A program made the position numbers and the translations under genes. A DNA stretch of 64,000 nt from positions 62,001 through 126,000 of the forward strand of contig PCAK01000023.1 in assembly GCA_002730525.1 (NCBI GenBank), in the 5' to 3' direction. This stretch comes from Acidobacteriota bacterium (GTDB lineage Bacteria > Acidobacteriota > Vicinamibacteria > Vicinamibacterales > UBA823). The first letter of the stretch is position 1, and each line of letters opens with the position of its first letter. Shown here one piece after another: positions 54,046-54,502 of this stretch. The notes below the pieces were generated by a model. The model did no database searches and was not told the DNA's origin. It was given only the letters and a program-made list of their open reading frames with translations.

Positions 54046-54119
54046 GGCGCCGTCGCCAAGTGGTAAGGCAGAGGTCTGCAAAACCTCCATCCCCGGTTCA
54101 AATCCGGGCGGCGCCTCCA
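54046..54119 (+). tRNA. tRNA-Cys (anticodon GCA)
   Basis: 74 nt including an encoded CCA. Acceptor stem GGCGCCG pairs perfectly with CGGCGCC. The anticodon stem GAGGT/ACCTC encloses loop CTGCAAA with anticodon GCA. The T arm is CCCGG-TTCAAAT-CCGGG. The minus-strand ORF described at 54098-54502 runs into its 3' part, and an integrase remnant begins 8 nt after it. Confidence 0.96.
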
Positions 54120-54502
54120 ACTTTCTCTAGAGACTTTTCGGGTCTTGCGTTCCGGTGAGAGGGTACTGCTGGGTGTTGTGCCCAAAAGTGTGCCCTGGGA
54201 CGAAGGCATCGAGCTTCTGGGCGGCTTGCTGCAGGTCTGATTCGTTGACGATGGGCCATCTGGCGCTGGGTGAGCGGCCGCGGCGGCTCGAACGGCAGCC
54301 GCGCTTCGGGTGGAGGTGCTGCTTCGGCGAGCCGGCGCACCCGAAACCGATTCATCTCCCCGCGGTAGCACTCGAAGCAGAGCGTGTGGTCTCGATCAGC
54401 CCACACCTCGCCCCGATACCGGAATCTGGCCTTCCGTTCCTCGCACGCCGCGCACAAGATCCTGATCCGCTTCGACCGACGGTGGCGTTGCTTGCTCGAC
54501 AT
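54098..54502 (-). CDS. Cys-rich zinc-ribbon-like ORF, 3' end replaced
   Basis: ATG 54502 starts with the basic MSSKQRHRRSKRIRI, then ILCAACEERKARFRYRGE and HTLCFECYRGEMNRFRVRR: two CxxC pairs 25 residues apart, a likely zinc site. The first ~80 residues look like a real small protein of unknown function. From about 54260 on, the frame passes through the integrase remnant in a different phase and ends inside tRNA-Cys, so the last ~50 residues are probably not native. I take it as a gene truncated by the same event that left the integrase fragment. Confidence 0.5.
   Translation of the reverse strand: MSSKQRHRRSKRIRILCAACEERKARFRYRGEVWADRDHTLCFECYRGEMNRFRVRRLAEAAPPPEARLPFEPPRPLTQRQMAHRQRIRPAASRPEARCLRPRAHFWAQHPAVPSHRNARPEKSLEKVGGAARI
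54127..54261 (-). pseudogene. C-terminal remnant of a tyrosine recombinase/integrase
   Basis: On the minus strand a 45-codon stretch reads RWPIVNESDLQQAAQKLDAF, then VPGHTFGHN and a short tail to a TAG at 54129-54127. This matches the end of phage/island integrases, where the catalytic Tyr segment (typically RYAIVNE) is followed by DL-x2-A-x2-KLD. Here the Tyr position is Trp and nothing upstream in this frame is integrase-like. Its location 8 nt from the 3' end of tRNA-Cys, a common att site, marks an old integration scar. Confidence 0.6.

Follow-up and report, generated by a model that had tools for sequence, protein, structure and literature searches.

Does the junction beside the tRNA-Cys gene of this Acidobacteriota bacterium record the former integration of a mobile element, and by what route did the site reach its present form? 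The window, which here means the whole 64,000-nucleotide stretch that was analysed (G000:C23:62001-126000), comes from a source genome of 3.3 Mb in 45 contigs, and the features that bear on the question are collected in the table below. The preliminary description had taken the site for the scar of a lost island, with an integrase tail adjoining a truncated Cys-rich gene. The site is very probably that of a decayed island, and the decay would have been an internal deletion rather than a clean excision.

Features at and around the tRNA-Cys site (window positions)
Feature	Position	Strand	Remarks
tRNA-Gly (GCC)	53927..54001	+	Adjacency to tRNA-Cys conserved in the order
tRNA-Cys (GCA)	54046..54119	+	Integration target, intact; relatives repeat its 3' 30-49 nt downstream
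Cys-rich zinc-ribbon-like ORF, two CxxC, 134 aa	54098..54502	-	Codons 1-88 (54239-54502) homologous
Segment extra relative to G005, between tRNA-Cys and the MscS gene	54120..57417		3.3 kb
Tyrosine integrase C-terminal stub, following the catalytic Tyr	54127..54253	-	TAG stop at 54127-54129
Junction zone, zinc-ribbon and integrase homologies overlapping by about 14 nt	54240..54253	-	From protein alignments of both partners; putative microhomology
NHL-repeat protein gene	54707..55897	+	Within the extra segment; 92% identity in congener G006
Ser/Thr-kinase-like gene, N-terminal remnant	56021..56203	-	85% over 61 aa relative to G006
CsgG/FlgT-like secreted protein gene	56260..57162	+	
MscS-type mechanosensitive channel gene	57461..58732	+	Right flank; directly after tRNA-Cys in G005

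An integrase tail at the 3' end of tRNA-Cys

The minus-strand frame at 54130-54351 reads ...SARWPIVNESDLQQAAQKLDAFVPGHTFGHNTQQYPLTGTQDPKSL and contains WPIVNESDLQQAAQKLDAFVPGHTFGHN..., and its TAG stop lies 7 nt past tRNA-Cys. The catalytic domain of tyrosine recombinases (PF00589) has conserved Arg, His, and Tyr residues. This domain was not found at the tail, for which Pfam and PHROGs gave no match and whose integrase homology starts at 54252, after the Tyr codon; the C-terminal tail alone is present at the 3' end of the tRNA gene. Pfam is silent because its curated model stops close to the Tyr and not for want of homology: PF00589 has 10 matches in the same genome, including an integrase that adjoins tRNA-Leu (L007) and ends RYDIINETDLREAVRKLGLAAGTVSGTIGQTG, and these end at model positions 165 to 170 of 172.

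With the L007 integrase as the query, a search of the phylum found relatives in 60 of 396 genomes, and two profiles, one of the integrase and one of the tail, were built from 26 integrase proteins taken from the phylum loci and from L018, the one locus used of four returned by a contig search (L019 to L021 were set aside as short matches covering at most query residues 1 to 34). With the profile of the 26 subfamily C termini, the tail was the sole significant match among 1268 window frames (E = 3e-6; next, 0.72). A second profile, made with the window left out from 24 tails taken from the catalytic Arg-Tyr onwards, found the tail in the whole genome at G000:C23:116199-116252 (window 54199-54252) with E = 3.3e-4. 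It gave 23.0 bits to the tail, 8.5 to the next window frame, 9.2 to the reversed window, and at most 15.4 to 60 shuffles, and it had matches at E of 0.01 or better in 53 of the 396 genomes. The proposal of a tyrosine recombinase tail on the minus strand is thereby borne out by profiles of its own subfamily, with the curated collections silent. A chance match in a meaningless frame, for which the shortness of the segment and the lack of a curated family reporting it might speak, is extremely improbable in view of these E values, the margin over every shuffle, and the position of the tail, which sits where relatives have such tails.

On this evidence, the tail is the C-terminal end of a tRNA-targeting tyrosine integrase; past Leu-Asp, it seems to be frameshifted relative to the corresponding tail of the congener G006. 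Since the catalytic domain is gone, excision and transfer by the element would not be expected. Integrase relatives were absent among viral contigs, and phage records gave distant integrases only, with less than 60% identity. Plasmids searched with the tail yielded a single irrelevant match (E = 10). A query with the tail alone against 162 genomes of the order gave weak matches in G155 and G098, which were dismissed as chance because they lay outside integrase frames with no tRNA near.

The junction with a zinc-ribbon gene

The Cys-rich ORF is real and homologous to a small protein family, which has relatives (E of 0.001 or better) in 21 of the 396 phylum genomes, the source genome included. 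Its closest complete relative, L136 (G121, 90 aa), is 50% identical to codons 1 to 88 and runs about 7 residues past the point where the alignment stops. The ORF and its truncation were thus correctly noted, and the C-terminal loss appears to be short, only about 7 residues by comparison with L136. Past codon 88, the ORF runs through the integrase-tail DNA in another frame and ends within the antisense strand of tRNA-Cys. Both CxxC pairs and codons 1 to 88 are intact and the frame is open into that antisense strand, as would suit a working gene for a zinc-ribbon protein that has gained a 46-residue tail from integrase DNA; this reading is unlikely, however, as the extension lacks homologues in its own frame, and the fusion turned up in no other of the genomes searched.

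At the junction, integrase L029 reads ...GACATCGTCAACGAGGCCGACCTG and the window reads ...CCCATCGTCAACGAATCAGACCTG. The Trp previously placed at the catalytic Tyr position is indeed there, but it is probably zinc-ribbon DNA and not part of the integrase: the Arg-Trp-Pro at the junction is accounted for by zinc-ribbon codons and so need not be a mutated Arg-Tyr. With some 14 nt covered by both homologies, the junction resembles a deletion via a short shared sequence, and deletion between such sequences would be the simplest account of it.

The following history would fit. A mobile element with a tyrosine integrase would have inserted at the 3' end of tRNA-Cys with the integrase gene pointing at the tRNA, the usual orientation in this subfamily. 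By a later internal deletion, the final codons of the zinc-ribbon gene, which lies on the same strand, would then have been fused to the integrase just past the catalytic Tyr codon, within the roughly 14 nt that both partners could have had in common. The deletion would also have taken the remainder of the integrase, about 7 C-terminal residues of the zinc-ribbon protein, and everything between; the distal att repeat would have gone too. The tRNA may have set a limit to the reach of deletions, so that the adjacent stub survived.

In this history, the zinc-ribbon gene would have been cargo of the element. None of 25 zinc-ribbon loci has an integrase match beside it, so the arrangement before the deletion is itself a reconstruction. 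Alternatively, the integrase could have been a stub on arrival, or a full integrase could later have received the zinc-ribbon gene by insertion or recombination, with no deletion within the element. The conjectural status of the zinc-ribbon gene as common cargo, given those 25 loci, and several integrase stubs of the phylum that join unrelated sequence near the same codon are in keeping with such an origin; a simple deletion, however, predicts that both homologies overlap in one 14-nt zone on one strand, and no other part of an inserting element is visible, which makes either variant improbable.

Those stubs raise the further idea that the subfamily has a recurrent breakpoint at the catalytic Tyr codon, at which stubs end unusually often and which would inactivate integrases and leave the tRNA unharmed. 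In the window, L222 (two places), L278, L279, L281, L282, and possibly L083, homology begins no more than about 5 codons from the Tyr. This clustering is only a lead, resting on a sample picked mostly for short open frames, with two members in one array (L222) and L083 at a contig end; moreover, repeated deletions ending ever nearer the tRNA would alone skew the starts C-terminally. A recurrent breakpoint is quite improbable. Other residues stand at the catalytic position in two stubs: a Cys in L281 (G021:C41) and different residues in L291 (G395:C431).

The site in the window and in relatives

The target gene bears a mark of tRNA-targeted islands, a regenerated intact tRNA gene, and tRNA-Cys with the next 10 or so nucleotides matches the empty site in G005, a member of the same family, at 98% identity. 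If it is the sole tRNA-Cys of the genome, the gene is indispensable. Its 3'-end pattern occurs once in the genome; the direct repeats that the preliminary description had suggested looking for downstream were found in neither the window nor the genome, and no local match to the tRNA in 54120-58000 exceeded shuffles. A candidate decayed attR at 57.3 to 57.4 kb was dropped, as no convincing part of the tRNA precedes the flank at 57418. A small gene just ahead of tRNA-Gly (53513-53853), which presumably resembles YraN/UPF0102, looks broken, with its halves in different frames (first half, MDRQQLGRQGETLACRALRRLGYAILDRRYRTRFGELDIVARD...; second half, ...ARDYMTRRRAWAGPCRFDVIGV...).

In G005, the MscS gene lies about 94 bp past tRNA-Cys, so that the extra segment is missing there, and the post-tRNA flank of that genome is recognisable in the window from 57418 (score 20; maximum of 300 shuffles, 18). 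Between tRNA-Cys and MscS, the window has the stub, the zinc-ribbon gene, the NHL gene, the kinase remnant, and the CsgG-like gene, in that order. The earlier reading of an old scar holds, but not as the simple loss of an island: 3.3 kb more than in G005 remains, and internal deletion fits instead. The congener G006 carries the NHL gene, a long kinase frame, CsgG, and MscS together on one contig (C40), and its tRNA-Cys with an integrase tail of its own on another (C8). The NHL-kinase-CsgG genes, being common to both genomes, are probably older than the split of the two species. The kinase gene, a long open frame in G006, has about 60 codons in the window. Beyond MscS, a gene for a 1215-aa NHL-repeat protein (58921-62568) precedes an MFS gene; in G005, the match at this place is limited to some 51 residues from its start.

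The similar tail adjoining tRNA-Cys in G006 supports decay of an island, against which were counted the lack of a Pfam or PHROG match to the tail, the missing attR, and the want of any relative joining zinc-ribbon gene and integrase. In G007, 8.8 kb of other genes separate tRNA-Cys from MscS, with no integrase match. The G008 assembly breaks at the site, one contig beginning in the last 23 nt of tRNA-Cys. Contigs of G008, G002, G001, and G003 (L053, L055, L057, L091, and L165) stop in or at tRNA-Cys or no more than about 50 nt from it, and in G006 the gene is interrupted by an N gap. Such breaks in family members fit a repeated or variable insertion site, as expected.

The Gly-Cys tRNA pair, used as a query, had a whole or partial match in 155 of 161 genomes of the order. 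Among the matches listed, 89 tRNA-Cys copies with downstream DNA were surveyed (12 with less than 2 kb; G105 entered twice); copies in G001, G002, G003, G008, G059, and G086 and on one G034 contig were excluded, in nearly every case owing to a contig end at or close to the tRNA. An integrase of the subfamily, or a fragment of one, lay within 10 kb at 19 of these 89 sites, always facing the tRNA, and began within 400 nt at 10; a same-orientation repeat of 30 to 49 nt of the tRNA 3' end was present at 9. The window belongs to the 19 and the 10 and not to the 9. Beyond 10 kb, G090 has a 46-nt repeat 11.5 kb off, and G091 has a 49-nt repeat about 15.5 kb off. The tandem array L222 at tRNA-Cys (G019:C139:20230-30308) holds three integrase pieces and two further tRNA 3'-end copies (48 to 49 nt), as from serial integrations. 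Related integrases at tRNA-Cys with tRNA 3'-end repeats, as anticipated, thus identify the gene as an integration site, and by this comparison it is a common hotspot in the order, used repeatedly.

Integrases of the subfamily adjoin tRNAs in many relatives. The source genome has 45 tRNA matches, 43 of them with some downstream DNA, and a tmRNA; a convergent integrase or piece lies beside eight (Lys-CTT, Gly-CCC, Thr-CGT, Leu-CAA, Gln-CTG, Leu-CAG, tmRNA, and Cys), and some pieces are short owing to contig ends, which is not so for those at Gln (66 aa) and Cys.

A decayed tRNA integration site

The available text on Islander (PMC4383910) establishes that tyrosine integrases insert elements into tRNA genes, the split gene being made whole again. 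Like the tRNA and tmRNA islands described there, the window has an intact target tRNA adjoined by an integrase end, the site is empty in a relative, and other relatives have tRNA 3'-end repeats at it; unlike them, as far as that text goes, it keeps only the integrase tail and has no displaced tRNA fragment at the far end. Another counterpart is G101, of the same order, in which an integrase (L085) lies at tRNA-Cys and 44 nt of the tRNA recur 1.3 kb downstream. The two share the subfamily tail motif R-Y-x-I-V-x-x-x-D-L, the same tRNA, and the same orientation, but in L085 the catalytic domain is largely preserved and still has its Tyr, and the window retains only what comes after that residue.

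The site therefore belongs to a known kind, the decayed tRNA integration site, real but ordinary, and it reveals no new mechanism. It illustrates how an island site may decay, with an indispensable tRNA shielding the last codons of the integrase. Surviving integrase tails can betray past insertions that escape integrase searches based on curated profiles, and the survey documents repeated use of tRNA-Cys as a site in this bacterial order.
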